From Paenisporosarcina cavernae (GTDB lineage Bacteria > Bacillota > Bacilli > Bacillales_A > Planococcaceae), in NCBI RefSeq assembly GCF_003595195.1, contig NZ_CP032418.1, forward strand, positions 1,376,501-1,440,500: a DNA stretch of 64,000 nucleotides, in the 5' to 3' direction. The translations under genes and the position numbers were made by a program. The notes under the pieces are model-generated. The model saw only the letters and a list, made by a program, of their open reading frames with translations, was not told where the DNA came from and ran no database searches. Positions 1 to 14,455 of this stretch are shown here, one piece after another (position 1 is the stretch's first letter; each line of letters starts with the position of its first letter).

Positions 1-883
1 GGTTCTGTTTCCAGTTCGTATCGTTGGGATTGAGTGCTTCACGCCCACCAATTTCAATGGCTGACATAATGGCACCAACTGCAGCACCTTCTTTGCTTGT
101 TTCTTTCGCAAGTTTCTTGGCAGTTTCTTTTGTAAGTGGTTTAGATAAGATATCTTTGGCAGTATTTGCACCTAACTTCGTACCTTTAAGACCTCTTGCG
201 ATAGCTGCACCAGGAACAAGATAACCAGTTAAATCCGCTAACATGTCCACTCCGCCACCTTCTCCAAGCTTACGCTTAGTTAGGTAGTCAGGAAGTTCCC
301 CGTTTCGCATTCGCTTGTCCAAGTTGCCCATGATGCCCATCGATGCTGAGTTGGTAGCACGTCCTGCGAAACGATCAACCGAATCAAATTGCTTGGACTT
401 TTCTTTATCAAACTCCATTGCGCTTTTCATCATGGCATCTCCAAATCCAACATCATCAAATGGATTGGCTGCTTTCACTGCTCGCTTACCAGCATTCACT
501 AAGTCCAAAAAGAAATTACCATCATCTTTCTTCGCATGTTTATTCTTATCGACACGAAGGAACCCTAAAATACTATCTAGCTTGTCTTTATCCGGCTCGT
601 TTGAGTTGCTCTCTTTTTTGTTCTTCACTAATTCATCGATGACAGAAGTATCTTCTTTTTTCTTTTTCGCTTCTTTTGCTGCCTTTTCACGCGCACTTTT
701 TTGTTCCTTCATTTCTGCTTCAAATGCTCGAACTCGTTCGTTGTATGCTGCCTTTTCAAGTTCAGCACGCGCTTTCGTATAACCGATGTCTCGAGCAGTT
801 GCTAAGCCTGAATCATAGGAACCCTTACCAAAACGCTTTTCAAACGTATCTTGGTATTTACTTCGATTAAAGTTCGTTGCCAT
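1..883 (-). CDS. Large internal/ejection-type virion protein, N-terminal part
   Basis: The reading frame is open for 294 codons and leaves the window at base 1, so only the N-terminus is seen. It starts 6 bases after the preceding gene, with GAGGATGATAGGAAATG as the start region. Residues about 30 to 80 are a very charged Lys/Glu/Ala stretch, probably coiled coil. A later part is rich in Gly/Ala, with LPDYLTKRKLGEGG followed by a hydrophobic stretch, the composition of internal proteins that phages eject with their DNA. It is placed last in the visible virion operon, right after a protein carrying a cell-wall-degrading domain. A tape-measure role is the alternative. The exact function is inference. 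Confidence 0.6.
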   Translation of the reverse strand, partial: MATNFNRSKYQDTFEKRFGKGSYDSGLATARDIGYTKARAELEKAAYNERVRAFEAEMKEQKSAREKAAKEAKKKKEDTSVIDELVKNKKESNSNEPDKDKLDSILGFLRVDKNKHAKKDDGNFFLDLVNAGKRAVKAANPFDDVGFGDAMMKSAMEFDKEKSKQFDSVDRFAGRATNSASMGIMGNLDKRMRNGELPDYLTKRKLGEGGGVDMLADLTGYLVPGAAIARGLKGTKLGANTAKDILSKPLTKETAKKLAKETSKEGAAVGAIMSAIEIGGREALNPNDTNWKQN

Positions 884-889
884 TTCCTA

Positions 890-2545
890 TCATCCTCTCA
901 ACATGCTAAGTGCATCGTTTTTCTCTCGTTGGAATCTTGCCACCACGCTTTGTCGAATATTCGCTGAGGAACTAGGGAAATATGCCAATCCATTGTTTCT
1001 TCCTCGCTCATTGTAAATAGCTTTAATCATCGCTTGTGGAGTCATACCAACTCTGGCCACTTTATTCAAGATGTTCTTCGCTCCACCAACACCATGCTGA
1101 ACTGCAGTGGACCATACTGCATCTTGAACGGCTTTCGGGTATTTCAAAATCCATGGATTAGCTTTTACCACTGGATCAAAATGAGTGGCTTTGATGTAGC
1201 TATGTTGTGCATTTGCGAACTTGCTTGGATTTCTAACTGCTTCTTGTTTCCAAGCATTATCGAATGAGCTTGTGCCTGCTTTCAATCCTTTTAGTGCGCC
1301 ACCATATTTATTCGCAAAAGCTTGTGCATTTCCTGATGCAGTTGTCAGCTGATAACTCCCGTAAGAAGCTCCACCAATATCCCCTGCATTCCGTGCAACT
1401 GTACCAGGATTACCTGAAGATTCATATTTTTGGGACAGAGCACCTAACCCTGTCCCACTAGGAAAATTTCCACCGTTCATGTAGCCCTCCATTTCTGTTT
1501 GGGCTATAGATTTATCTACTTCACCTTGGTACTCAAGTGCATACATTTTCCATGCCATTTCTTCTCCAAATTGAGAAGCATTCTGTGCCATTTGTGCCTT
1601 TTCAGATGCGGACATATTTTTGTACGTATACTCACGCCATGCTTTTTCCTGCGCATAACGTTGGTTGTCCTGCTGAAACTCTTGATTCCATCGTTTATCC
1701 CCAACAGTATCACGAGACTTCTGATAGTCCCATTGCTGTTGCCAGCGATTATCTGAGACATTGTCACGTCCAGTTTGATAATTCCACTCATTCTGTCTCC
1801 AACCATCATTCACAGAATCTCTCTCACGTTGGTAATTCATTTGGTCTTGATAACGTTGAGATTCTAACAATGCTTTTGATTTATCGGCTTCCAAGGCAGC
1901 AATTAATGATTCTACTTCACGTGGATCATTCAAGTCAGAGATACGACGATCATAATCATTTCGTTGTTGTTGTTCTTGCATGTTCAGCTGATTTAATGCC
2001 CCTTGTCGCGCAGAACCTAACGCCACTTGCGAAGTAACGTTCTCACCAGATGCTGTTAAACCGTTAGCTGCCATCAGTTCACGAAGTTTGGAGACATTCT
2101 GAGCGTTGACAACATCTGCTTGGTTACGCTTATCTGCATAAGCAGGTGCGAGTTCTGCTTTTTGTTGATTGATCTGTCCAATTGCACGATCACGTTGAGC
2201 ATTAAACTGAGCTAACTGCGCTTGTTTTTGTTGTTCAAACATGGCGTTAATTTGGTCAATGTAGTTGGTTGCTTGAGTAGGCTCTTTAGGTTTCACATTT
2301 GCGTATGCATTGTAGATTGCGTTCTTTTCGCCTGTTGGTTTATCTAATTGAATACCGGATTGAGCTTTACGGATGATTTCATTCATTTGATAATCGTTAA
2401 TTCCACCGCTGGTTGGTTTGACCTTTGGCGAGGACTTGTACATATCGTAAATGGCTTGTTTTTCTTTCGTTGGCGCTGACATTGCAATACCTGCTTGAGA
2501 CTTCTTGTAAATCTCGTTTAGTGTACTTTGATTGATTGCGGCCAT
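890..2545 (-). CDS. Virion protein with lytic transglycosylase-like domain
   Basis: 551 residues. The N-terminus (about 1 to 85) contains two related repeats of about 40 residues, each with the pattern L/MNEI..K.Q.GI......KP/PT.EK.AIY. Residues about 90 to 340 are Gln/Arg-rich and predicted coiled coil, with a recurring W-Q-x2-W-D/N-Y-Q pattern. Residues about 365 to 551 form a lysozyme-fold domain (motifs KYESSGNPG and GGASYGSYQL), typical of virion-associated murein hydrolases that open the wall during DNA entry. The long coiled middle plus enzyme domain fits an ejection protein better than a free endolysin: there is no signal peptide and the gene sits in the virion operon. The target bond cannot be told from sequence. 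Confidence 0.72.
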   Translation of the reverse strand: MAAINQSTLNEIYKKSQAGIAMSAPTKEKQAIYDMYKSSPKVKPTSGGINDYQMNEIIRKAQSGIQLDKPTGEKNAIYNAYANVKPKEPTQATNYIDQINAMFEQQKQAQLAQFNAQRDRAIGQINQQKAELAPAYADKRNQADVVNAQNVSKLRELMAANGLTASGENVTSQVALGSARQGALNQLNMQEQQQRNDYDRRISDLNDPREVESLIAALEADKSKALLESQRYQDQMNYQRERDSVNDGWRQNEWNYQTGRDNVSDNRWQQQWDYQKSRDTVGDKRWNQEFQQDNQRYAQEKAWREYTYKNMSASEKAQMAQNASQFGEEMAWKMYALEYQGEVDKSIAQTEMEGYMNGGNFPSGTGLGALSQKYESSGNPGTVARNAGDIGGASYGSYQLTTASGNAQAFANKYGGALKGLKAGTSSFDNAWKQEAVRNPSKFANAQHSYIKATHFDPVVKANPWILKYPKAVQDAVWSTAVQHGVGGAKNILNKVARVGMTPQAMIKAIYNERGRNNGLAYFPSSSANIRQSVVARFQREKNDALSMLRG

Positions 2546-2567
2546 TATTTCACCTCATTCTAGACAT

Positions 2568-2590
2568 AAAAAATACACCACATTTGGTGT
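2568..2590 (-). terminator. Intrinsic terminator-like hairpin between virion genes
   Basis: Read on the minus strand, ACACCA-AATG-TGGTGT is followed by ATTTTTTATG. The 6-bp stem with a U-run lies between the small gene at 2615-2776 and the 551-residue virion protein, so it would reduce but probably not stop expression of the genes further left. Confidence 0.5.
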
Positions 2591-2614
2591 TAGTATAGTT
2601 ACGCAATAATATTT

Positions 2615-2776
2615 CTAACGTTCATCTAATTTGTCTAAAATTAGATTTAACATTTCCATTATATCCTTATTTGTGGGATTCGCTTTCACTTTCAGAGAAT
2701 CTTTCTTCTTCTCACGGTCACTCTTTCCGACATGAAACCCCTTTGCTTTCTTCTCAATTTTTTTAAGTTTGGGCAC
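2615..2776 (-). CDS. Small basic phage protein, unknown
   Basis: 53 residues with GTG start, preceded by GGAGGTAGTTATCC, a strong ribosome-binding site. The start overlaps the end of the upstream Ig-like protein gene by 14 bases, which supports translational coupling. The first half is Lys-rich (PKLKKIEKKAKGF) and the second half ends in a short amphipathic helix (MLNLILDKLDER). No domain recognised. Its position among fibre and virion genes suggests a minor structural or assembly role, but this is a guess. Confidence 0.6.
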   Translation of the reverse strand: MPKLKKIEKKAKGFHVGKSDREKKKDSLKVKANPTNKDIMEMLNLILDKLDER

Positions 2777-3140
2777 GGATAACTACCTCCCCAATTCTTA
2801 CATTTGGAGCATGGCAAGTTATGAGAATATCGTCAACTACATCGGACGTGACTTCAATAGATACTTGCCCATCAATTAGAGAGAGTGTTTGTTCTGCTCC
2901 ATCAATCGAAAAGGTAACAGAATCATTGCTCCCTACTTGGTATTGCCCCTCATAGTTATATAGCCTCGCGGTCACGGTAGCAACATCCGTTCCATTTGAT
3001 AGAATGGTTTCCTTGTCCGTCGATAAACGAATGTGTGTTGCTTGATCATAATATGAAGTAATCGAAACTGTTTGTGTATCGGTCACTATTTCCTCGGACT
3101 TATAAACGGAGTCCCCTTGGACAATAAAATTACTTGTCAT
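2763..3140 (-). CDS. Ig-like domain virion protein
   Basis: 125 residues. The middle carries the bacterial Ig-like (invasin type) pattern: TILSNGTDVATVTARLYN, then VTFSIDG, then a final strand region ending near GEVVIRAQT. Such domains decorate phage capsids, tails or fibres and bind surface carbohydrates weakly. No enzyme motif. Start ATG is preceded by GGAGGAATAAGC. It lies in a run of small virion genes downstream of the tail-adaptor gene, so it is probably a minor tail or capsid decoration protein. Confidence 0.65.
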   Translation of the reverse strand: MTSNFIVQGDSVYKSEEIVTDTQTVSITSYYDQATHIRLSTDKETILSNGTDVATVTARLYNYEGQYQVGSNDSVTFSIDGAEQTLSLIDGQVSIEVTSDVVDDILITCHAPNVRIGEVVIRAQT

Positions 3141-3152
3141 GCTTATTCCTCC

Positions 3153-3458
3153 CTAATCTAACTCATAAGAAATCATGGTTGTTCCTGCTTTGTTGCTCAT
3201 AAATGAACCTTTAAGTAATTCGAATGAAGTATTGAATGGAATATCAAGTGCCTTTAATTCGCTAGTGGGTTTGTTTGAGTAAGTATTGTGCCACGGGAAA
3301 TAAGTGTCGTTGATTTGTGTGACTCCATCTATCTTTAGTGTAAATTTCCCTTGGGTAGACACTTGAATCATATTTAGTTTACCTTTACCCGTTACTATGA
3401 TTAGACTTGTATTCAATACGCTGTTTGTTGCTATATGGTTAATCTTTGCGACGGTCAA
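3153..3458 (-). CDS. Small virion protein, unknown
   Basis: 101 residues, TTG start with GGAGGATAACCA upstream. Beta-rich by eye, with many short Thr/Ile/Asn strands, no transmembrane segment and no cysteine. It sits between the fibre-like 330-residue protein and the Ig-like protein with gaps of about 12 bases, so all three are probably one transcription and assembly unit. No family recognised; a minor tail or fibre-tip role is likely from context only. Confidence 0.5.
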   Translation of the reverse strand: MTVAKINHIATNSVLNTSLIIVTGKGKLNMIQVSTQGKFTLKIDGVTQINDTYFPWHNTYSNKPTSELKALDIPFNTSFELLKGSFMSNKAGTTMISYELD

Positions 3459-3470
3459 TGGTTATCCTCC

Positions 3471-4463
3471 TTATAAAACATGATACATAACCCACGTGTA
3501 TATATTTAGTTGGTTGTTATACGTTGCGTTGGTCATCTTGGCGGATATTGACAATGTCGAAAACTCCACATCTTCGAACACATAAACTTCTGTCATATTT
3601 CCGTTATTTAGTGCCGAGCCATCAGTATTATAAGCAAAGGGATATTGTAGAGTTGTCGGACGAACAACAACCCCATCAATGGTTATGGTCATACTCATCT
3701 GACTGTAGACATATTCAGGAGAAGAACCTCCCGCATAATATGTTCCTAATACAGAAATTGACTTCAATACTAAATTAGTCCCGCTAATCGTCAGTAACGT
3801 TTTGTCTGTATTATCAAGTGATAAATTAGTGGGATTAAGTAATGACGGTGTTCCCGTTCTATTTGCAGTTGGTAATCCACTAACCCCTTCAACTAACTCA
3901 CTAGCTGTCGGCACTTCTCCCACTTGCGTGACTGTCCCACCCTTACCAACAATAGCGTCACGCACGGATAAAACCTTATTGTCAGTATCGGACTTTAAAG
4001 TGTCTAACTCTAGACCGACTTCTTGTAAAGCACCTTCAGTGTTTTCGGATGTGTAGTAATTGCCCTCATCTGATAAGGAAACGTCACTCGCTGTAGATGC
4101 TATGCTAAAGGCTAATTTCTCAAGGGTAATGGAATTGTCTGGAATTTGCCCGAGAACAATCCCTTGTATTTGCCCGAGTAAGTATGCTTTATTGGAATCA
4201 TCAAGTGCTTTTAGACTTTCCAATAATTCTTGTACAGTCGTTCCAGCTATATCTGCAATCGCTGTTACCGAGATGTTATCTGCTCCACTGTCTCCCTCAG
4301 CTGTCGATTTGAGGGCATCAATTAATTGGTTCAAATACACTCGGACCTCATCTGGTGCAGCATCAAACTGTGCCTTCACTTCTGCTGCAGTCATCGTCGC
4401 ATTTGGTTTGTCCGCAAGATCCTGCACCTTTTTAGTAAATGCATTTAACTTTTGTAATGGCAT
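3471..4463 (-). CDS. Tail fibre/receptor-binding-like protein
   Basis: 330 residues. The N-terminus (about 1 to 60) is helical and matches the common fibre start that attaches to the virion. A linker with GQIPDNSITLEKLA, a phrase frequent in phage fibre shafts, follows at about 110. Then come a heptad-like segment (about 140 to 175) and a beta-rich C-terminal half from about 195 with GTPSLLNPTNLSL, likely the receptor-binding head. AAGAGGTGATGAT precedes the ATG. Function is inferred from architecture and from position directly downstream of the gp10-like tail protein. Confidence 0.62.
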   Translation of the reverse strand: MPLQKLNAFTKKVQDLADKPNATMTAAEVKAQFDAAPDEVRVYLNQLIDALKSTAEGDSGADNISVTAIADIAGTTVQELLESLKALDDSNKAYLLGQIQGIVLGQIPDNSITLEKLAFSIASTASDVSLSDEGNYYTSENTEGALQEVGLELDTLKSDTDNKVLSVRDAIVGKGGTVTQVGEVPTASELVEGVSGLPTANRTGTPSLLNPTNLSLDNTDKTLLTISGTNLVLKSISVLGTYYAGGSSPEYVYSQMSMTITIDGVVVRPTTLQYPFAYNTDGSALNNGNMTEVYVFEDVEFSTLSISAKMTNATYNNQLNIYTWVMYHVL

Positions 4464-4475
4464 ATCATCACCTCT

Positions 4476-6266
4476 TTACTTAACTGGGGATTGATAACGA
4501 TATTTAATACCTATCGATAACAATCCAAGTCCTTCGTCTAATTTGTCATTTTTCATCAACAACTGAAAATGTGTGATCTTCTTCGCTTTTATTTTTGCCA
4601 TTGCTTCCTGTGGAAATTGCGACAAAATGAATGACCAGTTATTGAAATCGATATTTCGAAAATCGAGTAAATCCATTCGAGAACTTTTCACTAGATCACT
4701 TTCTTTTTTGTTCGAAATGTAATATAAATCCACGCTAGTCCTCGTCATTGGCTTCATTCCGAAATACACTTTCTCCACCAGTTTACGAAGTTCATCAGCT
4801 GAAAAAACGAATTGCTTGGAACGCCAATACGCATTGATTGGCTCACCATTATCGTTAAACGGTGTAGCTTCACTTTCTTTGAAAAAGCGATACATCATTC
4901 CCTCTTCAGAAGAAGCGAAATAAAACTCGTCCTCAATTTCGATAAAAGCGCTTGCTTTGATGTTGTCGTAGATGAACCATTCACCAATCGAATAATCGAA
5001 AATATATACTTTGCTGTTAACCGCTAGCCAATACTTACGATCGTGATCAAAGGAGATTGCTGACTCTAGATTTGGTTCTCTTAACAACGCATTATCTATG
5101 TTCTCGCTGACATGCTGCACATTTCGTTCATCACGAACGGTTGATGCAGTCAGAATGTATACGCCAGTTTTATCAAGAGATATGGGATTGTTTTCGATTG
5201 TCTGAATGGACTTCGACGCAATTGTCCCTACTTGATCATTAATTGGCTTTAACGGAAATGATGGTTCCCCATTTTGCAATTCAAATCGCATCACCCATTT
5301 GGAACGTTCTTTTTCAATCACAAGATAATCATATTGTTTGGTGAAACCTTGCACCTTTTCTGCATCAGTCCCGATTTTATAAAATCCGTTTTCCGGAAAG
5401 TACGTTGGATCCTGCAATCCACTCCGCCACACTTGAGAAGGATAAATAGGATTTCCGCTCACGAATACCCTTGTATCATTGGAGCCACCAAAGATAACGT
5501 TGAAACGACATTTCTTAATGCGATCCGCAAAGCTCGGTTGTGTTTTATAGGCGGTAATCTCCACATTATTTGTGCCAGTACTTGGGGCAGTAACAAAGGT
5601 CACTTTGCCTGTAATTGCATCAAATGTGTAATCGGTTGTAATTGTTTTGAGAACATTATCTACTTTTACGATGGCTGGTGTCGCATCCAAATCCTTTAAC
5701 GAAAGATAGAAGTCTTTTGCGGTACCATCACCTGAGAATGTTTCTTTAAAACCTGCTCCAAGTAAATTTAAATCCTCGTACAACGCCCCTCCGCCATTTT
5801 CACCTGGCAATTTACTGATTAGAAGTGTCGGAATATAGGGCACAATTTCTTCAACGGAAGTCCCGTCAAAGACTAAATAATTAGTTCCGTCTTGGATATA
5901 ACACTTTCCTCCATATTCAAAGAATGAGACTGAGTTATCTGCAATTCCTGTATACAATTCAACCGGTTGTTCGTTGTCTTGTTGCTTATACAGTTTTGTT
6001 CCGTGCGCAAGAAGCAAGATTTCACCGTTCTCATGATGAAATAAGTGAATACCATTAATTGCACCTAGACCAAGTGAAACGTCAAACTTCTTTTCATACC
6101 CAGTGCGTTTATTTAATGCACCACGCTCATCCACATGCATGTTTAACATATCGGATGCTTGGCTTTGGTCTATTTGCGTTGGAGTAACACTCAAGTTAAT
6201 ACCTTTAAACGGTTCCACACGAAGTAAGGGCGGTGGAGCTGGTATATTCGTGACTAATTGCGCCAT
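4476..6266 (-). CDS. P22 gp10-like tail hub/DNA stabilisation protein
   Basis: 596 residues. The N-terminal section has the pattern QSQASDMLNMHVDERGAL.KR.GYEK (about residues 35 to 60), which I associate with the beta-propeller hub proteins that close the portal in short-tailed phages (P22 gp10 class). The rest is beta-rich, with repeated short blocks such as YIQDGTNYLVFDG and KVYIFDYSIGEWF that look like propeller blades. The start overlaps the stop of the upstream adaptor gene (TGATG). No tape measure or tail tube is nearby, which fits. Family assignment is from pattern memory, not a search. Confidence 0.62.
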   Translation of the reverse strand: MAQLVTNIPAPPPLLRVEPFKGINLSVTPTQIDQSQASDMLNMHVDERGALNKRTGYEKKFDVSLGLGAINGIHLFHHENGEILLLAHGTKLYKQQDNEQPVELYTGIADNSVSFFEYGGKCYIQDGTNYLVFDGTSVEEIVPYIPTLLISKLPGENGGGALYEDLNLLGAGFKETFSGDGTAKDFYLSLKDLDATPAIVKVDNVLKTITTDYTFDAITGKVTFVTAPSTGTNNVEITAYKTQPSFADRIKKCRFNVIFGGSNDTRVFVSGNPIYPSQVWRSGLQDPTYFPENGFYKIGTDAEKVQGFTKQYDYLVIEKERSKWVMRFELQNGEPSFPLKPINDQVGTIASKSIQTIENNPISLDKTGVYILTASTVRDERNVQHVSENIDNALLREPNLESAISFDHDRKYWLAVNSKVYIFDYSIGEWFIYDNIKASAFIEIEDEFYFASSEEGMMYRFFKESEATPFNDNGEPINAYWRSKQFVFSADELRKLVEKVYFGMKPMTRTSVDLYYISNKKESDLVKSSRMDLLDFRNIDFNNWSFILSQFPQEAMAKIKAKKITHFQLLMKNDKLDEGLGLLSIGIKYRYQSPVK

Positions 6267-6649
6267 CAGCCTTCAACTCCTAGCACACTATAAACATCGA
6301 CAATCGGTTCTGGAGTACTAACAGATGAATATTTCTTCTTTAATTCGTCGTATCGAGCGTTAAAGAAAGAAGAGATAGTTAAGTCATCATTAATTAACAA
6401 ATGTGCTGCAAGTCCATACGGAAGGACGAGGTATGCTTGTCTGTCATTCACTTGTAAAGGTTCAGTCAAGTCATTGATCGGAATAAATACTGCCGTGATT
6501 GGCAGTAATTCGAGTTGTAGGATATTCAATGTTTGAATAGCTTTTGTTTTGTAATAGGCAGGTGTTTCTGTCGCGATAACACCTGTTTCTAACACTTCAT
6601 CCATTAAGGTAAGCGCACGATCAAATACCGCTTGTGCTGTGACAGGCAT
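6266..6649 (-). CDS. Head-tail adaptor-like protein
   Basis: 127 residues, mostly helical (AQAVFDRALTLMDE at the start, a second helix AAHLLINDDLTISSFFNARYDEL at about 80). Small helical proteins of this size directly after the capsid genes usually form the ring that joins portal to tail (P22 gp4 or gp6/gp15 classes). The ATG has GTAGGTGGCCAA before it. The gene is separated from the capsid gene by a 57-residue gene and a terminator. Confidence 0.5.
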   Translation of the reverse strand: MPVTAQAVFDRALTLMDEVLETGVIATETPAYYKTKAIQTLNILQLELLPITAVFIPINDLTEPLQVNDRQAYLVLPYGLAAHLLINDDLTISSFFNARYDELKKKYSSVSTPEPIVDVYSVLGVEG

Positions 6650-6682
6650 TTGGCCACCTACTTTCTACTTGTTTTACAAATG

Positions 6683-6709
6683 AAAAAAGGGCAGGTTCCC
6701 CCGCCCTTT
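6683..6709 (-). terminator. Intrinsic terminator inside the virion operon
   Basis: On the minus strand AAAGGGC, a 10-base G-rich loop and GCCCTTT are followed by TTTC, with a total run of six T. It is a well-formed terminator between the capsid-proximal genes and the adaptor and tail genes, so the adaptor and tail genes need read-through, antitermination or their own promoter. Confidence 0.75.
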
Positions 6710-6714
6710 AGTTG

Positions 6715-6888
6715 TTATTCCGTTTCGCCTTCGTTTGTACCAGGTGCTTCAACTTTCTCACCATATAATTTATCGCGATCAGCTTTTGTAGCTGGTTCAA
6801 ATCCTGCTTTTTCAAATGCTGCAACTTGAATTGGATCACGAGCTACCAAGATATCTTTACCATCTTTAATTTTGAATTTAATTTCCAT
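6715..6888 (-). CDS. Small acidic phage protein, unknown
   Basis: 57 residues, ATG start with AAAGGGG about 10 bases upstream. It begins MEIKFKIKDGKDILVARDP, continues with a short helix (VAAFEKAGFEPATKAD) and ends in an acidic tail. It lies directly behind the capsid gene and ends 6 bases before an intrinsic terminator, so it is the last gene of the packaging/capsid segment. No family recognised. Confidence 0.6.
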   Translation of the reverse strand: MEIKFKIKDGKDILVARDPIQVAAFEKAGFEPATKADRDKLYGEKVEAPGTNEGETE

Positions 6889-6905
6889 AGTCTAAAACCC
6901 CTTTA

Positions 6906-7733
6906 TTATATTGTTTTGTGAACGTATAGAGCGTTCTTTTTATTTTCAAGCACAAAAGCATCATAACGGTTACGACCTTCAACTAGTTTTCCGTTTACAC
7001 CTGGAGGGTTGTCATGAATCTTGTAATCTTCTAGTTTTTGAGCTCCTACAGTAGCTACAGGGTGACAGATTAAGAAAGGTGTGTTAGCCGGCATGTAAGA
7101 AGACGGGACTTTAATTACTTTCATTCCATCTAATTCACCCACCTGACCGTTAATAAGCATCTTCTGTGCAATCTCAGTAGATTTAATAAAATCTGGTGAT
7201 AGTTTAATCAGCTTGTAGAAGCTAGTAGTCACATACAATAATCGACCACCTTGAGGAACTTTCTTATCATCTAGTTTCTCAGTTCCATCAAGTACCGAAC
7301 TATATGCATTAGATGATGTTACAGCAGCTGTAGTTGTATGTCCGTTAGCAACTGCAGCCGCAGACATTGTAGCTAAACGGTACACATCAATTTCAGGAAC
7401 GATTACTTCATCCACTTGTCGAGCTAATGCTTTTCCTGCCGCCATTGTACCGTTTGTATCTTGCTCATTCGCTTTATCGATTGTGAATGTGAATGAACGG
7501 TCACGAGTTAACAGCATTGTTTGGACTGTGTTATCCAGTTCCGCTGCTGATCCATAACGAGAAGTACCTGTTTTCACATAATCGTTCATTCCAACAGTAG
7601 GTACAGAGTACACTTTAATTGTGTCTACACCATTCCAATCATACTCATGGTTTACCGCTGCTTCTGTTAGAGACTTTAATTTGAATCGTTCGTCGACTTT
7701 TTTCTCATACTTGCTTGCTAAGTTTACTACCAT
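6906..7733 (-). CDS. Major capsid protein (HK97-fold type)
   Basis: 275 residues. Position directly after the scaffold gene and the pattern of the first half (NDYVKTGTSRYG, then TRDRSFTFTIDKANEQ, a block common in small HK97-fold coat proteins) point to the coat protein. The C-terminal half has the typical short segments ending in ENKKNALYVHK. No protease domain is attached, consistent with a separate scaffold. The start has GGAGTGAACAAAC upstream. Coat proteins are abundant, so this gene should be the most highly expressed of the late block. Confidence 0.78.
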   Translation of the reverse strand: MVVNLASKYEKKVDERFKLKSLTEAAVNHEYDWNGVDTIKVYSVPTVGMNDYVKTGTSRYGSAAELDNTVQTMLLTRDRSFTFTIDKANEQDTNGTMAAGKALARQVDEVIVPEIDVYRLATMSAAAVANGHTTTAAVTSSNAYSSVLDGTEKLDDKKVPQGGRLLYVTTSFYKLIKLSPDFIKSTEIAQKMLINGQVGELDGMKVIKVPSSYMPANTPFLICHPVATVGAQKLEDYKIHDNPPGVNGKLVEGRNRYDAFVLENKKNALYVHKTI

Positions 7734-7757
7734 GTTTGTTCACTCCTAATAATGTTT

Positions 7758-8639
7758 TTAGATTGAATTGAATCCTTTGAGGAAGTCATCCTCTGAAGCT
7801 GGTTCGTCTGTTCCGAGATTCGTAAGACTACCAACTGTGGCACGTTTTGCATTTTGGTCATTCTGTTTGTACGTTTTGAGTTGGTTCTGCAAATTCTGCA
7901 TGTGTTGTTCCATGTACGCATAACGAAGTGGAACACCTTGCTCATGACGTTGCCAAACTTCTGGTGGGATTTGGTCCGTCTTCGGGTCAAAGTCTCGCTC
8001 GTTCGCTTCTTTGAAGAATTGGAAGAACTCCGTGAACTCCTCGTTACGTTTTTGTTCCTCTTGCTGACGTTGCTTTTCCTGTTGTTGCTCTTCTCGGAAT
8101 TTTTTACTTTCCAAGATTTCGCGAGCATATTCTTCTGGAATGTTTTGTTGAATCAGTTCATCTAGCTTTGCTTGCTCACGAGATTGTTTTGCATAATCTA
8201 GGAACTGTTGAGTGTCCATTCCAGCTTCTTTCGCCATTTCTTCAATAAAGGAAAGTCGTGGATCTGTTTCAAGTTGTTGCAATCGTTCCTGCAGTTTGTC
8301 GTAATTCATTCCTTTTTGAATGAGTGGCACGGCATCTTCATAACCGATTTCTTGTTCTTCGTGGTTGAATTTCACTTTAAACGATGGAGGTAACTGTTCT
8401 TCTACTTGCTCATTTGAAAGAGGTTCTTCCTCCTCATTTAAAACATCATCAACTGGTGTGGTATCCTCTGCTGATTCCAATTCATCCTCGAAACTTAAAA
8501 AATCGTCTGTCTCTTCAAAGCTGGGTGACTCGAGAGACTCTTCTACTGGTAAATCAACTACTTCTTCTCCAGCAAAATGCTGTAGATTAACACGTAATAA
8601 AAACGGTTCGCTATGGTTGGCGATTGTTGGCATAAACAT
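7758..8639 (-). CDS. Capsid scaffolding protein
   Basis: 293 residues. The start chosen is the ATG 10 bases after GGAGG; an upstream in-frame TTG (at 8708) has no ribosome-binding site. After a short N-terminus ending LRVNLQHFAGEE (a common start in scaffold proteins) comes a very acidic region (about 25 to 85), then a long Gln/Glu/Arg-rich coiled coil (about 130 to 230) and a compact C-terminus that would bind the coat protein. It lies between portal and coat genes, the canonical place for a scaffold. There is no serine-protease motif, so maturation would not depend on this protein. Confidence 0.78.
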   Translation of the reverse strand: MFMPTIANHSEPFLLRVNLQHFAGEEVVDLPVEESLESPSFEETDDFLSFEDELESAEDTTPVDDVLNEEEEPLSNEQVEEQLPPSFKVKFNHEEQEIGYEDAVPLIQKGMNYDKLQERLQQLETDPRLSFIEEMAKEAGMDTQQFLDYAKQSREQAKLDELIQQNIPEEYAREILESKKFREEQQQEKQRQQEEQKRNEEFTEFFQFFKEANERDFDPKTDQIPPEVWQRHEQGVPLRYAYMEQHMQNLQNQLKTYKQNDQNAKRATVGSLTNLGTDEPASEDDFLKGFNSI

Positions 8640-8654
8640 ATAAATAAATCCTCC

Positions 8655-8672
8655 TTCGCTATGGTGAGCGAA
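8655..8672 (-). other. Hairpin abutting the scaffold gene ribosome-binding site
   Basis: TTCGCT-CACCAT-AGCGAA on the minus strand forms a 6-bp stem ending directly at the GGAGG used by the scaffold gene. A near copy (TTCGCTATGGTTGGCGA, plus-strand reading) lies about 50 bases away inside the gene start. It may act as a standby site or be bound by a protein; this is speculative. Confidence 0.35.
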
Positions 8673-8719
8673 ATATTGTGAGACTTTTACTGTCATTCTC
8701 CAGGACAATATAAAAACAC

Positions 8720-10453
8720 CTACATTGGCATCCCTTGCCCTTGTGGTGTTTGCAGTTGACTTAATATTTGGTTTTGAACTTCTGGTGGTGCATTTTGAAA
8801 TGCCTGCTGTTCTTCTGGTGATAATTGTTGAATTAAACTAGCAGGATCCATTGGTTGGCTTTGTTGTGCTTGCATTGCTTCTTGTTGTTGCATACGTTCT
8901 TGAATTTTACTGATTAATTCTTGTTTTTGAGGAATATACTCATCAGGAACTCGATCTAAATAGTCGATGATGTCTAAGTATTTTCCCTCAAGCAATCGGT
9001 CTAGAGTTTGTAATGCTGCAATCTCTGACCAATAAGAAGATTCCCCAACATCTGCTCGAATGTTAAACCACATATCTTTCAACTGGTTAAAATCGAATTC
9101 GACTAATTGTTTCATCCCTTCTATATCCATCACTACTGGTCGTTGGCCATAATAAGTACCCATCATGTCAAATAGGATTTGTCCGATATCCTCAATCCAC
9201 TCATACAAATTCGCACGTGGGTTTTCGAGTGGTACCGATGAAGATTTCTGAACCGCAATAATTGCTGAAGTATTCTTTGGATCTACGTTACCAAGTGCAG
9301 CATCAGATGCACCTAGCATTTCTTTTGTGTACTCCATCGCCAGCTCAATCGCTTGGATAATCTGATTCGACATATTGCCTGGATTTAAATATCCTGCGAC
9401 GTTATTAATGCTGTTTTCACCGCCTAATCCCGATACGGGTATGGCCATCCCAATTTCATTGGACCACGAGCTCATTAAATCTGCGTTGTACACTGCTTTA
9501 GGGAAAGCCGTCATCATAAGGTGATACATCACCATCGCAAACATACGATTGATGAAGATTTGATTTGGCAACATGCCTGTACAAAGTGCTCGACCATGAT
9601 ATTGATTCTTTTGTTTCTCCCAGTTCATCCAAGCGACTGGATATCCCTGCAAACCTGTATCAATGTCTTTGTAAATATAAGACGATTCGATACTCTTACT
9701 AACGTGTATGGTGCCTTTTTCTTTGTTTAATCGATAAATGATTATATACAGAGCCTTACCTGTTTCATCACCCTCAATATCGAGCTCTTCAACTTCAATC
9801 TTACCTGCATCCGCAGATTGTTCTAAGTATAAGTGATCGCTCTGAATATTATCGATATCCGATTGGTTCGCTTTGAATCGTTTTGCTTCATCCTTTAAGT
9901 TTGCGACCATATCACGACCTGAAATGATAATGTATGGCTGTCCTTCTACTTTAGGATTGTTTGCATTGCCAAAATAGACATTCGCACCATCGACTAATTC
10001 GAAGCTAATTTCTCCTTTGATATCTTTAAAAGCTTTTCCGTAAGGTTTCTTCGACATATCGAAATATAAATGCGCACAAGCATCACCAGTAATAGCTGCA
10101 TCAAATAGAGCATCCTTCACTTTAAAATCCATTTTGAACTTCTCAAATAACGTTTGTATCTGAGCATTCGCTATTTCTGCAGGACTAGGTTGACCATCTA
10201 CGAGATCCGTATCGGTTAGTGGCTCTAGATGCAGTTTACTTTTTGAAGATGTGAGTGAAGCAATAAAGAACGTAATCACTCGTTTGATGATATTAAAAAC
10301 AGGTTGAGGCAATTTCTCTACTTTCAGATTGCGCCACTGATTCCCGTTAAAGAATTCTAAATTGGCAGTCACCGTATCGTAGTAGTTCGGTTCTAAACGA
10401 TTGTTATAACGCTTGCCAGCTTCGTATAATTCCCAATCTTTCGTTTGTTCCAA
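8720..10453 (-). CDS. Portal protein, P22-like family
   Basis: 577 residues, near the size of small P22-type portals. The start is TTG behind GAAGGTGTAACGC. The segment LPQPVFNIIKRVITFFIASL (about residues 43 to 62) is the conserved early helix region of this family. Later come GYPVAWMNWEKQKN and a helical C-terminal half. The last 80 residues are Gln-rich (QERMQQQEAMQAQQSQPM), a flexible barrel-like tail. It follows terL and a small membrane protein and precedes the scaffold, as expected for the DNA entry vertex. Confidence 0.82.
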   Translation of the reverse strand: MEQTKDWELYEAGKRYNNRLEPNYYDTVTANLEFFNGNQWRNLKVEKLPQPVFNIIKRVITFFIASLTSSKSKLHLEPLTDTDLVDGQPSPAEIANAQIQTLFEKFKMDFKVKDALFDAAITGDACAHLYFDMSKKPYGKAFKDIKGEISFELVDGANVYFGNANNPKVEGQPYIIISGRDMVANLKDEAKRFKANQSDIDNIQSDHLYLEQSADAGKIEVEELDIEGDETGKALYIIIYRLNKEKGTIHVSKSIESSYIYKDIDTGLQGYPVAWMNWEKQKNQYHGRALCTGMLPNQIFINRMFAMVMYHLMMTAFPKAVYNADLMSSWSNEIGMAIPVSGLGGENSINNVAGYLNPGNMSNQIIQAIELAMEYTKEMLGASDAALGNVDPKNTSAIIAVQKSSSVPLENPRANLYEWIEDIGQILFDMMGTYYGQRPVVMDIEGMKQLVEFDFNQLKDMWFNIRADVGESSYWSEIAALQTLDRLLEGKYLDIIDYLDRVPDEYIPQKQELISKIQERMQQQEAMQAQQSQPMDPASLIQQLSPEEQQAFQNAPPEVQNQILSQLQTPQGQGMPM

Positions 10454-10456
10454 GCG

Positions 10457-10669
10457 TTACACCTTCTTCCGTTGAAGAGCTGTTTTCACGTCATAGCTAA
10501 ATATGTTCGCAAAGTCCTCATTCAATTTTTTTAATCGTTGTTGTTCTTCTGGATCCATATCCGGTGGTTTGGCTTTTGGGACTTGATTGTGTCCTAATCC
10601 CATCCGATACCCTAGATAAAAGACAATAAAAAGAACCACTCCTGTGAGTAGCCCGATAAGATAATCCAT
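10457..10669 (-). CDS. Small phage membrane protein between terL and portal
   Basis: 70 residues with one N-terminal membrane helix (IGLLTGVVLFIVFYLGYRMG), then a Pro/Asp-rich linker and a basic C-terminus (LQRKKV). The start has AGGAGGAATTAAAT. It ends 3 bases before the portal gene start, so the two are coupled. A membrane protein in the packaging block is unusual but seen in some phages; no function is known to me. Confidence 0.6.
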   Translation of the reverse strand: MDYLIGLLTGVVLFIVFYLGYRMGLGHNQVPKAKPPDMDPEEQQRLKKLNEDFANIFSYDVKTALQRKKV

Positions 10670-10701
10670 ATTTAATTCCTCCTAGCAGTCTGTGAATTCA
10701 T

Positions 10702-12207
10702 TTAATCCCAGTCCATAAAATCGTTTATTTGAGGTGAGCCACCAGTCATTGTTCGTACGGCTGACTCGTGTATCTCTTTTGGTGTTGGATTATCAGGATC
10801 ATGTGCTTCTGGAACATCTGCATTGTAATAAAACAATTTGTTTAAAGCCTGTGAACCTGAATCCACATCATCGTCATTTTTCCCTCTTGGGAATGCTGAC
10901 CACTCATCAATGAATTCTGTAGTCCAAGGTTCATTTTTCGGCACCCATACATTACCTGAACGAATGTAATCTGATACCGCACTCACACGAGCTATTTTAC
11001 TTCCCTTTGGATTAACAGGAATGATACCCGGCAAATGTTTACGTAGCATCGAGATAATAGCCGAACCGTTTGCTTTGTCCTCAATAAAAATGCCTGTTGC
11101 CTTTGGATAACGCTTTTTCATTGTTTTGATGGCTTCTAAGGTTGTTGGAAAATCCATCCGCCTTTTATCTCTGTCCACGAGATATGCATTAATGCCTGTC
11201 TTTCCCCAAGCTTGAATAGAAACATAATCGGATGTATCACTATCTTTGAACGTTGCATCCACACTGATGATCATACGTTGCAACACAGGTAAGGTATCGT
11301 ACTTTTTCCACCAATCTCTTTTCACCATGTTTCCTTCATGTGCAGTAGGTCTTCCTTGGTAAAGGGAATTGAAAGAGGCAGGGTATCTCTTTCTTTCAGC
11401 GATAAACGAATAGCTATATCTCTCAGGCCACAAAGGCTCGCCAATCTTGCGACCAAGCAAATCGTTTTCTTCTGCTTCAAGTGGGAAGTTGTAAACCTCC
11501 CAATTCAACGGTTGGCCATATTCGGGATTTAGCAATCTGCCTTGTAAATCGTCTTCGTGCCACCGTGTAAGAATGAGGATAACAATTGCACCTGGATGCA
11601 AACGCGAGGAGAAAGAGTCTATCCATTCATCCCAAATCTTTTCCCGATGATTTTCGCTATTTGCTTCTTCCCTGTTCTTAATTGGATCGTCAATAATCAT
11701 TAAGTCGGCACCTTGACCAGTGATACCAGATAGAACTCCTCGACTAATCATTCCGCCTATATTGTTTGAGAGAGTCCACTCATCGTGCGCTGAACTATCT
11801 TTTGCTATTTCTATACCAAAGATATCGTTGCCGTATTGTCGAATCTTTTCTTTGTTCTTCTTACCAAACTTACGAGCAAATGTATCGTTATAGCTGATTT
11901 CAATAACCCGGTCTTCTGGAAAATGTCCTAAGTAATAACTTGGTGCAGTTTCCGTTATTGTCATTGATTTTGAATGACGAGGTGGCATGTTAATTGCGAT
12001 GTATTGGTTCTCTGTTGGTATGTCACCATCTCGCATACGTTTCTTTTTATCAACTGCAGATTGAATGATGTTACCGATAAATTCGGTGTGTGGAGCAATT
12101 TGATATCTTCCTTCATGCGCATAAACAACATAATCGATGTAATTTCTTCTGGCGATCGCCTTTTTAACTTCATCAAGTGATGGCAGTTTTAGAGAGGATG
12201 TTTTCAA
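10702..12207 (-). CDS. terL: Terminase large subunit (ATPase/nuclease)
   Basis: 501 residues. It drives DNA into the prohead and cuts it. A Walker A-like motif INMPPRHSKS (about 73 to 81) and Walker B ADLMIIDDP (about 167 to 175) mark the ATPase. The adenine or coupling motif follows near LILTRWHEDD (210 to 219). The nuclease half starts with ISVDATFK (Asp about 317), with further acidic residues in GIFIEDKANGS and DDDVDSGSQA. The TTG start follows GAGGAGTTGAAAAAGC and overlaps terS by 35 bases. The motor belongs to the Terminase_6 type by pattern. Confidence 0.92.
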   Translation of the reverse strand: MKTSSLKLPSLDEVKKAIARRNYIDYVVYAHEGRYQIAPHTEFIGNIIQSAVDKKKRMRDGDIPTENQYIAINMPPRHSKSMTITETAPSYYLGHFPEDRVIEISYNDTFARKFGKKNKEKIRQYGNDIFGIEIAKDSSAHDEWTLSNNIGGMISRGVLSGITGQGADLMIIDDPIKNREEANSENHREKIWDEWIDSFSSRLHPGAIVILILTRWHEDDLQGRLLNPEYGQPLNWEVYNFPLEAEENDLLGRKIGEPLWPERYSYSFIAERKRYPASFNSLYQGRPTAHEGNMVKRDWWKKYDTLPVLQRMIISVDATFKDSDTSDYVSIQAWGKTGINAYLVDRDKRRMDFPTTLEAIKTMKKRYPKATGIFIEDKANGSAIISMLRKHLPGIIPVNPKGSKIARVSAVSDYIRSGNVWVPKNEPWTTEFIDEWSAFPRGKNDDDVDSGSQALNKLFYYNADVPEAHDPDNPTPKEIHESAVRTMTGGSPQINDFMDWD

Positions 12208-12646
12208 GCTTTTTCAACTCCTCCACTGACAAGCTGCTTAAATCCACTTGATTATTCACATTATGCGTTGTCTCACCTGAGTGCTCGATTTCCTGTTTAT
12301 CTCTCCACTCTTTCGGTTTTCTATTTTTCAACCAAAAGATTTGTGCAGTTGTATCTGGTTGGACTTCCTTTGTAACCCTTTTTGTTTCAATCATTACCAT
12401 TTCAGTTTTTCCTGTCTCCTTGTTAAAGTGTTCAGCATACTCCTTGGTAATTTCATCATATCGATATCCAAGTGCTCTTTTAAGTAAGGCATTTTCGACT
12501 TGGCGGTCAACAATCTCTTTGCCCTTTTTTAAGGACTCCAAAAACTCTGGGAACTTGTTCTTCCAGTCGTTTAATGTGGAAACTGCAATGCCCATATTTT
12601 GAGCAATTTGTTCATCTGTCAGTCCGTCTCTTGCCCAACCGTTCAC
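12173..12646 (-). CDS. terS: Terminase small subunit (5' end frameshifted)
   Basis: The uninterrupted frame from GTG gives 157 residues: an HTH (GLTDEQIAQNMGIAVSTLND) that binds the packaging site, a helical oligomerisation region and a C-terminal tail that contacts TerL. Homologous sequence clearly continues upstream in frame (KGKFAYWITEDGLLKV precedes the GTG), yet no start codon exists there. A good start (ATG at 12717 with AAAGGGTGA upstream) lies in the neighbouring frame and stops after three codons. See the separate entry on the -1 slip site. The GTG is therefore probably not the true start, and the real product should be about 23 residues longer. Confidence 0.85.
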   Translation of the reverse strand: MNGWARDGLTDEQIAQNMGIAVSTLNDWKNKFPEFLESLKKGKEIVDRQVENALLKRALGYRYDEITKEYAEHFNKETGKTEMVMIETKRVTKEVQPDTTAQIFWLKNRKPKEWRDKQEIEHSGETTHNVNNQVDLSSLSVEELKKLENILSKTAIT

Positions 12647-12700
12647 TTTGAGTAAGCCATCTTCTGTTATCCAGTAAGCAAACTTTCCTTTAGCTCCACC

Positions 12701-12733
12701 TTTTTTTACTTTCCCATCGCAATCACCCTTTCA
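12701..12733 (-). promoter_or_regulatory. terS start region with GGGAAAG slippery heptamer
   Basis: Minus strand: ribosome-binding site AAAGGGTGA, ATG at 12717, then GGA AAG TAA. The phased heptamer is G GGA AAG, the same sequence lambda uses for its gpG/gpGT -1 frameshift, and it is followed at once by the TAA. A -1 slip would continue GTA AAA AAA GGT into the terS frame and give MGKVKKGGAKGKF, a convincing TerS N-terminus. The alternative is a one-base deletion that broke the start of terS. Confidence 0.55.
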
Positions 12734-12748
12734 CGCTATTTGCATTTT

Positions 12749-12786
12749 TAGACATATAAAAAGCACCCCTAAGGATGCTCTTTTTT
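12749..12786 (-). terminator. Intrinsic terminator before the packaging genes
   Basis: On the minus strand GAGCATCC-TTAG-GGGTGCTTTTTAT pairs as a stem with one U-G pair and a U-run. It lies between the 77-residue unknown gene and terS. The complementary strand also has a terminal A/T run, so it may work in both directions. Confidence 0.65.
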
Positions 12787-13018
12787 AACCCTCAACTTTA
12801 CCATCTACCAGTAATTCTAAGTAGTTTGCAAACTTAAACTCGGGGTTTTCATCTTCAATAACAACTATTTTAGTGGTAATATTCTTATCCAAATCAACAC
12901 CTCGACACATGTACTTTCCATCGCCAATAAATGTAATATCCGTTTGGAAATAATAATCACCATCATTTAGAACTATTAATTTTCTAACAGTATTGAAGAA
13001 CTTAGTTTCTTTTTTCAT
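12785..13018 (-). CDS. Unknown 77-residue protein with sequestered ribosome-binding site
   Basis: Starts MKKETKFFNTVRKLIVLNDG. Beta-rich and acidic towards the C-terminus, with one cysteine and no membrane segment. It is flanked on both sides by intrinsic terminators and so forms a single-gene unit between the late regulator and the packaging genes. Its ribosome-binding site AAAGGAGG lies inside a 9-bp inverted repeat (separate entry), so translation is probably controlled. No family recognised. Confidence 0.6.
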   Translation of the reverse strand: MKKETKFFNTVRKLIVLNDGDYYFQTDITFIGDGKYMCRGVDLDKNITTKIVVIEDENPEFKFANYLELLVDGKVEG

Positions 13019-13026
13019 AAGAATTC

Positions 13027-13058
13027 CTCCTTTTTCTGTACACTTCTACAAAAAGGAG
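13027..13058 (-). promoter_or_regulatory. RBS-sequestering hairpin
   Basis: On the minus strand CTCCTTTTT and AAAAAGGAG form a perfect 9-bp stem around a 14-base loop that itself can pair GTA with TAC. The 3' arm contains the Shine-Dalgarno sequence of the 77-residue gene, 9 bases before its ATG. This would block translation unless the stem is opened by temperature, a protein or an RNA. Confidence 0.6.
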
Positions 13059-13075
13059 ATATTTTCCTGCTTAAT

Positions 13076-13108
13076 ATAAAAAACGCTTAGAGATATGCCC
13101 AAGCGTTT
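13076..13108 (-). terminator. Terminator after the late regulator operon
   Basis: On the minus strand AAACGCTT, a 12-base loop and AAGCGTTT are followed by TTTATATT. The perfect 8-bp stem with a U-rich tail lies about 75 bases downstream of the late regulator stop codon. Confidence 0.82.
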
Positions 13109-13182
13109 CTAAAATTCTTATTTAATTTTACTACCTTAGTATATCCCCTACACATGCACTGGCTGCGTAGATTCAATACTGC

Positions 13183-13611
13183 TTATTTATAGAGTAACAC
13201 ACTGTTGGTCAAGTAGGTGTGTAATATTTTGTCACATTTCGCAGAAACATTTCGAACGTAGCCATATGACAAATTTAATTCATCGGAAATCTCTTTTAAG
13301 GACTTGCGATCAACTACTACTTTTTTCATGATTGCATACTCAATTCTATTTAGTTTTCCTAATGCTCTTTCATAATCCTTTTTCATTACTTCATAGTGCT
13401 CTTTACGCTGCATAATTTCATGTTTTCTGTTATGAAATAAGTCCACACGTTCGATTGCCTCTTTGGAACCAAACTTCGTAGCTCCAATACTCCCCAACAT
13501 GTAACTGCCTTTCCCGAACCAATAATCCATATCTGCATTTACACGTTCCAGGTCCAGTTCGATTGTTTCAAGTGTTGCACACAAATCCAAATAGTTAGCC
13601 AACATTTTCAC
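13183..13611 (-). CDS. Late transcription regulator, ArpU/RinA-like (sigma-region-4-type HTH)
   Basis: 142 residues. Residues 1 to 90 are helical and charged. The C-terminus carries the pattern AIMKKVVVDRKSLKEISDEL (about 95 to 115) followed by LSYGYVRN, a sigma-70 region 4-like HTH. Proteins of this size and layout immediately before the packaging genes switch on late transcription in phages of Gram-positive hosts (ArpU, RinA). It ends the early/middle operon and is followed by a strong terminator, so the late promoter should lie close by. No promoter could be assigned there with confidence. Confidence 0.75.
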   Translation of the reverse strand: MKMLANYLDLCATLETIELDLERVNADMDYWFGKGSYMLGSIGATKFGSKEAIERVDLFHNRKHEIMQRKEHYEVMKKDYERALGKLNRIEYAIMKKVVVDRKSLKEISDELNLSYGYVRNVSAKCDKILHTYLTNSVLLYK

Positions 13612-13630
13612 TTAAACCGACCCCCTTTAT

Positions 13631-13843
13631 TTATAAACCATCTAACCCTTGTTTTCTCTGTTTGATTTTCTTTCTTTCTGCTAGATCAATCACTAAGATA
13701 GCAAGCTCAATTTTCTTTCGTTTCATTTTTTTCGAGATGTTAAGCAGAGATATTTCGCTCTGCCACATCTCAATAAATTCCTCGATTTCTTTTTGGCTAA
13801 ATCCTAAATCTAAATCAATCTGATCCAGCGCAAAATACTTCAT
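13631..13843 (-). CDS. Small phage protein, possibly HTH
   Basis: 70 residues. The central part (EEFIEMWQSEISLLNISKKM) plus KRKKIELAILVIDLAER looks like a short helix-turn-helix followed by an amphipathic helix. The start overlaps the stop of the preceding gene (ATGA), so it is translationally coupled. It sits directly upstream of the late regulator, which suggests a control function. Not assignable to a named family. Confidence 0.55.
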   Translation of the reverse strand: MKYFALDQIDLDLGFSQKEIEEFIEMWQSEISLLNISKKMKRKKIELAILVIDLAERKKIKQRKQGLDGL

Positions 13844-14007
13844 CGTTTGTTACGCAACCACTCTTTATTACTGGCACTCTCAAACCCAACTGCATGACCT
13901 TCTTTCCATCCCCTAGCATGTCCCTTTGTCTCACCGTCGACCTTGCCGATGAACATTCCTGCGACAAATCCGAACAACACCATCATGAGTAACCAAAATA
14001 GCTCCAA
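13840..14007 (-). CDS. Small membrane-anchored phage protein
   Basis: 55 residues, TTG start with GAGGTGG five bases before. The N-terminus is a membrane helix (LFWLLMMVLFGFVAGMFIG) and the rest a Gly/His/Trp-containing basic tail ending WLRNKR. Its stop overlaps the next start (ATGA). Such single-pass proteins with this tail are frequent in Bacillales phages; function unknown. Confidence 0.6.
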   Translation of the reverse strand: MELFWLLMMVLFGFVAGMFIGKVDGETKGHARGWKEGHAVGFESASNKEWLRNKR

Positions 14008-14017
14008 TTGTTCCACC

Positions 14018-14212
14018 TCATTTCGTTACGACTTTCCATCCTTCTTTTTTCAATGCGCGAAGTTCTTTCCCTTCGAACCGGTCATAAAGCCATTGTTCTC
14101 GAATGCCATCATCTAGCTTGAGTAAGAACCAACTACCTTTACGTTTTAGCTGGATGTGTTGCACCTTTTGGGGACGTTCCACCTCAATCGTAATTCCGTG
14201 TTTGTTTTGCAT
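14018..14212 (-). CDS. Small phage protein, unknown
   Basis: 64 residues starting MQNKHGITIEVERPQ. The ATG with GAGGAG 10 bases upstream was chosen over an in-frame start at 14299, which has no ribosome-binding site and would overlap the upstream zinc-finger gene almost completely. Beta strands with many Lys/Arg/Trp (KRKGSWFLLKLDDGIREQW), then a helix ending KVVTK. No family recognised. Confidence 0.6.
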   Translation of the reverse strand: MQNKHGITIEVERPQKVQHIQLKRKGSWFLLKLDDGIREQWLYDRFEGKELRALKKEGWKVVTK

Positions 14213-14369
14213 AAGCACGCAACTCCTCAAGGTTTCTATGTCGATGGCAACAATTACCACACTGGATGAACGATACATAATCAAGAACATATTCGACATC
14301 GCCTAGCGATTGCCAAACACCACACTTATCACAAGAGACTAGCAACGGGTAGTACTCTTGCTTTTTCAT
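14184..14369 (-). CDS. Small zinc-ribbon protein
   Basis: 61 residues with two Cys pairs (SCDKCGVW at about 13 and QCGNCCHRH at about 36), a rubredoxin-like zinc ribbon. A helical C-terminus (LEELRAYAKQT) follows. The start ATG has AGAAAAGAAGGGATGAT upstream. It overlaps the next gene by 29 bases in another frame. It may bind nucleic acid or be structural; phages carry many such ribbons of unknown role. Confidence 0.62.
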   Translation of the reverse strand: MKKQEYYPLLVSCDKCGVWQSLGDVEYVLDYVSFIQCGNCCHRHRNLEELRAYAKQTRNYD

Positions 14370-14455
14370 ATCATCCCTTCTTTTCTAGGTTATTTGTAAA
14401 AACTTAAGCAATACTAGTCGATATAAATTACATCAAACAAAGAGGTGATTGCGTT

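Follow-up and report, generated by a model that had tools for sequence, protein, structure and literature searches.

Anatomy of the terS start region

How does a ribosome enter terS, the gene for the small terminase subunit, when the strong ribosome-binding site and start codon placed before it open a different reading frame? The gene belongs to a prophage in the window, by which we mean the whole stretch of 64 000 nucleotides of Paenisporosarcina cavernae DNA that was analysed. An earlier note on this DNA, which gave no strand, had described a strong ribosome-binding site and an ATG followed by GGA AAG TAA; these were found on the minus strand, with ATG GGA AAG TAA at 12717–12706. Read downwards from 12731, the start region runs AAAGGGTGAT TGCG ATG GGA AAG TAA AAA AAG. 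The Shine–Dalgarno (SD) sequence, AAAGGGTGAT, occupies 12722–12731, the frame-0 ATG lies at 12715–12717, in the position at which relatives have TTG, and the frame-0 stop codon TAA lies at 12706–12708, frame 0 being an ORF of three codons that encodes MGK. The last base of the ATG and codons 2 and 3 form the heptamer G GGA AAG (12709–12715), directly 5′ of the TAA and, as had been claimed, phased as in the lambda site, that is, X_XXY_YYZ relative to the ATG. The terS coding sequence (GGG AAA GTA and onwards, 12173–12715, minus strand) occupies the −1 frame, which opens after a TGA at 12733–12731 and ends at the stop at 12173; the product of a slip would begin MGKVKKGGAKGKF. Within the window, this frame contains no ATG, GTG or TTG before the GTG at 12644–12646, a codon 23 codons inside the gene that has no SD and is not conserved.

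The end of terS is overlapped by terL (10702–12207, minus strand), the gene for the large terminase subunit. Just upstream of the terS leader, a terminator-like hairpin with a T run can be read from the sequence at 12756–12780 (minus strand); similar hairpins lie upstream of terS in relatives, and transcription of terS would require either readthrough or a promoter of its own. The string GGGAAAG is not rare in itself, with 12 occurrences on the two strands of the window against approximately 5 expected; what goes beyond chance is that it stands in phase right at the start codon and that diverged relatives have it too.

The reading that we favour, with a probability of about 0.64, is initiation at the ATG (TTG in relatives) followed by −1 programmed frameshifting at codons 2 and 3, which would limit TerS synthesis. 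Ribosomes would initiate at ATG 12717 by way of the strong SD, and tRNA-Gly on GGA and tRNA-Lys on AAG would slip back one base on GGGAAAG; a minority of ribosomes would then continue into terS as M-G-K-V-K-K-G-G-A-K..., while the remainder would terminate at the UAA after MGK. The SD that serves initiation, 10 nt upstream, probably promotes the slip as well, and the outcome would be a fixed low rate of translation that throttles TerS. The slip, its efficiency and its purpose in dosage control are what we infer from the observed anatomy, conservation and selection on the −1 frame.

Some other routes into the frame were considered and discarded. Transcriptional slippage at the downstream run of seven A residues cannot remove the frame-0 TAA, which includes the first two A residues of the run, and the A run of the heptamer itself is only three residues long. 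Reinitiation after MGK was rejected because the terS frame offers no start codon within 60 nt and because the viral contig L152 lacks the adjacent stop.

Identity of the gene and its prophage

The product of terS matches the terminase small subunit family phrog_309 with an E value of 9e-72, the match beginning at residue 3 of the translated −1 frame, and the gene also has the adjacency to terL of that family. The late genes on either side are long, intact ORFs. An AlphaFold model of TerS, built on an alignment of six sequences, had a mean pLDDT of 54.7, with the N-terminus below 50, too poor for judging the N-terminal helix.

A second prophage in the same complete host genome has a terS start identical to that in the window. 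The two share a late module of 14.4 kb at 99.3% identity (window positions 1–14386 against 1763948–1778321 of the host contig), within which the sequences differ only in a few short tracts, and the remaining parts of the prophages match only piecewise, which suggests a recent exchange between two different prophages of one genome. Viral-contig entries that match the window copies probably come from the same assembly and were hence not counted as independent. A third prophage-like region of the host (383784–386854) has a similar terS leader (81% identity over 71 bp), but the TerS behind it is a different one and starts conventionally at an ATG.

Selection on the upstream codons

When the first 23 codons are read in the −1 frame, pS is 0.56 against a pN of 0.14; in the other two frames pS is below pN. 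Such purifying selection indicates that these codons, which precede GTG 12646, are translated in the −1 frame, and it bears out the claim that coding sequence precedes the first conventional start in the terS frame. Among the phrog_309-type loci with the heptamer, synonymous sites are near saturation (pS up to 0.86), with pN at 0.13–0.29, and pairwise pN/pS over the whole gene is about 0.2–0.4.

No synonymous change was seen in the GGG AAA codons across six sequences, compared with a pS of 0.63 for codons 4–23; GGG accounts for 13–15% of the glycine codons and AAA for about 70% of the lysine codons. The most telling case of heptamer retention is, in our judgement of these alignments, L152, in which GTA has changed to GTC, AAT to AAC, GGT to GGC and GGA to GGT, and the adjacent frame-0 stop has been lost, with the heptamer unchanged. 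Conservation of the heptamer gives only moderate support to a functional site, since recombination may have moved the leader, and recent sharing of the leader may account for part of it.

Recurrence in related phages

Searching relatives at the protein level turned up terS genes in this frame relation in three genomes (G025, G053 and G057) from two other host genera, whose start region reads GGTGATGCC ATT GGG AAA GTA AAT AAA GGT GGA GCT AAA. Pattern scans added two genomes of a further genus (G039 and G205) and the viral contigs L152, L154, L155, L156 and L195, all with GGGAAAG in phase with a frame-0 TTG; counting that of the window, the in-phase heptamer precedes terS in four host genera and in several viral contigs. 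Another contig, L188, has the same start, with a reading frame that ends after 22 codons. When viral contigs were scanned with a loose pattern, most matches were due to chance and were dropped after translation. The TerS proteins of L155, L156/L170, L171 and L195 belong to phrog_51, which is unrelated to the phrog_309 of the window, and the start cassette is therefore joined to two unrelated TerS bodies. Relative to the TerS of the window, those of L116, L117, L118, L142, L149 and L152 have an insertion of about 20–40 residues in the middle of the protein.

Of the other Bacilli genomes sampled, none from beyond the host family had the pattern, and the ATG-type pattern GGTGATNNNGATGGGAAAGT matched no terS besides that of the window. 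Megablast against the phage collection returned no close relative, and a search for the terS leader in plasmids gave nothing beyond a chance match. The leader does occur in a Psychrobacillus phage, and the heptamer-bearing terS start therefore appears to be kept in phages of one bacterial family, probably the Planococcaceae.

The shared leader and its in-frame sisters

A scan with the leader alone (TAGCNYNANGNGGTGA) over 261 genomes of the host family identified GGTGATGCCATTG as a common leader of terS. Its TTG is the in-frame, evident start in 16 sister terS genes that are intact; GGGAAAG is absent from all of them, their codons 2 and 3 being ATT GAA, AAT GTG and similar. In the same set, TTG GGA AAG is present in all four intact genes that have terS in the −1 frame (Fisher p = 2e-4 for heptamer against frame class, in lineages that are not independent). 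The frame-0 start is retained in every member of the heptamer class, as TTG or as ATG. The terS-frame codon at this position is ATT in most relatives; L195 has GTT and the window GAT.

In the earlier note, comparison with related phages had been proposed, on the view that an uninterrupted start with one more base at this point would argue against slippage. Uninterrupted starts do exist (TTG in the 16 genes, GTG or ATG in others), but codons 2 and 3 differ in them. The extra base was seen in a single copy, L338, where one more A at the heptamer (GGGAAAAG) would bring the gene into frame, and which counts against slippage; that gene, however, is degraded and contains stop codons, and the extra base may be left over from an in-frame ancestor or may have arisen neutrally in a pseudogene.

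A conserved leader of approximately 25 nt, TAGCATAATG(G/A)GGTGA, was observed in many genomes of the family, preceding unrelated TerS families and also some genes other than terS (for example in L303, L328 and L357); its distribution resembles that of a recombination joint or a regulatory site. The sister terS genes of L117, L134 and L365 have an overlapping ATGTGA, in which an ATG at the frame-0 position is followed by TGA and the in-frame GTG start lies two bases on.

SD spacing, tRNAs and downstream structure

In all 11 loci, the GG of the SD precedes the start codon by 8 nt and the heptamer by 10 nt, and the predicted SD duplex energies range from −12 to −16 kcal/mol. The 16S rRNA tail of the host is standard (TGGATCACCTCCTTTCT, present in eight copies). 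SD elements that stimulate −1 shifts lie 9–14 nt upstream, and the hybrid with the rRNA persists for 5–7 nt of translation (reviewed in PMC5009743). The 10-nt spacing falls within this range in a sequence that also serves initiation and, given the persistence of the hybrid, the SD would plausibly still be in place, at a stimulating distance, during decoding of codons 2 and 3; it therefore probably doubles as the frameshift stimulator.

G_GGA_AAG is among the three most efficient heptamers in Escherichia coli (PMC4066793) and is the site of lambda G/GT (PMC7618472). The tRNA-Lys genes in the rRNA-linked clusters of the host all have the anticodon UUU, and tRNA-Gly with UCC is present, which makes re-pairing on GGG and AAA possible. 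The host contig (at about 5124–6788; L391 525–2189) also holds a cluster of nine tRNA genes followed by the same nine inverted, a near-perfect palindrome that may be real or an artefact of assembly.

No conserved downstream stimulatory hairpin was found: the z scores indicate a strong one in L112 (−4.65), moderate ones in L116 (−2.9) and L111 (about −2) and none in the window (−0.5). A downstream hairpin or pseudoknot is not obligatory for −1 frameshifting in bacteria.

The features that mark −1 programmed frameshifting of the X_XXY_YYZ class are thus present here, namely a phased heptamer, selection on the −1 frame, conservation of heptamer and frame-0 start among diverged homologues, and an SD at the appropriate spacing, and the frameshift proposed in the earlier note gains from them support that is comparative rather than experimental.

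Alternative explanations

Relatives might instead initiate TerS at the in-frame ATT (ATT GGG AAA GTA); as a rare start codon it would limit expression, and the window, with GAT, would have lost its start and make little or no TerS. The presence of ATT in the terS frame, 7 nt from the GG of the SD, in most loci of the heptamer class speaks for this and against slippage, and Staphylococcus aureus has conserved AUU and AUA starts preceded by strong, extended SDs (PMC13009471). Of the 16 in-frame-TTG leaders, however, 15 contain the motif CCATTG with its ATT out of frame, so that the ATT belongs to the shared leader and is not specific to the class. Moreover, the window (GAT) and L195 (GTT) retain the frame-0 start and the heptamer without it, L195 being the weaker evidence because of an in-frame TTG five codons on, as is also present in L156. 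Initiation at AUU also leaves unexplained why a top slippery heptamer stands in phase in every −1-frame terS. We consider it a possible but unlikely account of the class. It cannot serve the window, which has GAT and for which slippage or a crippled gene remain; in the members that have ATT, AUU initiation and slippage could act together.

That terS is simply broken, through a frameshift mutation or a sequence error that leaves both prophages defective in packaging, would agree with the lack of a conventional start before GTG 12646 and with the frequency of prophage decay, but we judge it very improbable. The ORFs are intact, pN is well below pS and the neighbouring late genes are intact; both prophages carry the same arrangement, and its frame relation and heptamer are common to diverged phages of three other genera. 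Sequencing error and a private deletion were rejected on these last grounds, and the earlier suggestion of a one-base deletion crippling packaging, taken as a private accident, is not supported, the arrangement being shared also by two TerS families. Nor do we find it credible, save at very long odds, that TerS (157 aa) starts at GTG 12646 and that the conserved stretch upstream is untranslated in this phage. The GTG is the first conventional in-frame start, but it lacks an SD, is not conserved, and would remove conserved residues; purifying selection in that frame acts on the 23 codons before it, and in most relatives the first conventional in-frame start lies 28–57 codons into the gene, in many cases inside the HTH region. 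Slippage beside the start codon is the reading that we carry forward, and the arrangement looks like a deliberate brake on the amount of protein rather than a broken gene, as far as can be judged from these sequences.

Implications and comparison with known systems

It is quite possible, if still tentative, that the leader, the SD, the TTG or ATG and GGGAAAG together form a mobile start cassette. Its SD would also be the stimulator, and it would admit a fixed small fraction of ribosomes to any downstream terS; placed by recombination before two unrelated TerS families, it would be a general throttle missed by both start annotation and frameshift finders. If the reading is true, a frameshift within the first three codons that uses the initiation SD is a simple way of setting an expression level, the dosage of the packaging enzyme is linked to slippage of tRNA-Lys, and gene callers would place such TerS starts 20–60 residues too late. 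GeneTack missed frameshifts less than 50 nt from the start codon (PMC3711429), and searches of the open-licence literature turned up no account of frameshifting where terS begins.

Recoding of a phage terminase gene has been proposed before, in the Streptomyces phage Hau3 (PMC5009743), but there as likely translational bypassing at a UUA codon, in contrast to a −1 slip beside the start codon. AUU and AUA starts, as in infC and in cvfC1 and ccpN of S. aureus, are weak, SD-driven and associated with low expression, and the relatives of terS with ATT in frame resemble them; the window, with GAT, has no in-frame ATT at SD distance.

The terS site shares with the lambda G/GT tail-chaperone site its heptamer, its phase, the −1 direction and its setting in a phage late gene. 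Known productive −1 frameshifts lie mostly deep inside genes, and tail-chaperone genes, located between those for the tail tube and the tape measure, yield two functional products with a common N-terminus. In terS, by contrast, which adjoins terL, the site is at codons 2 and 3, the zero-frame product is the three residues MGK rather than a long protein, and the whole functional protein would depend on the shift. As in E. coli dnaX and the IS911/IS3-type elements, which have an internal SD as stimulator, an SD-like element lies about 10 nt upstream of the heptamer, but in terS the initiation SD would itself act as stimulator, and there is no consistent downstream hairpin. The cdd gene of Bacillus subtilis, in which the −1 shift occurs at CGA AAG, resembles terS in its Bacilli host and in the slip of tRNA-Lys at AAG; an upstream SD stimulates the shift there too, and a stop codon directly follows the AAG. 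Yet cdd lacks a full X_XXY_YYZ heptamer and slips near the stop at the end of the gene, whereas terS would do so at its start.
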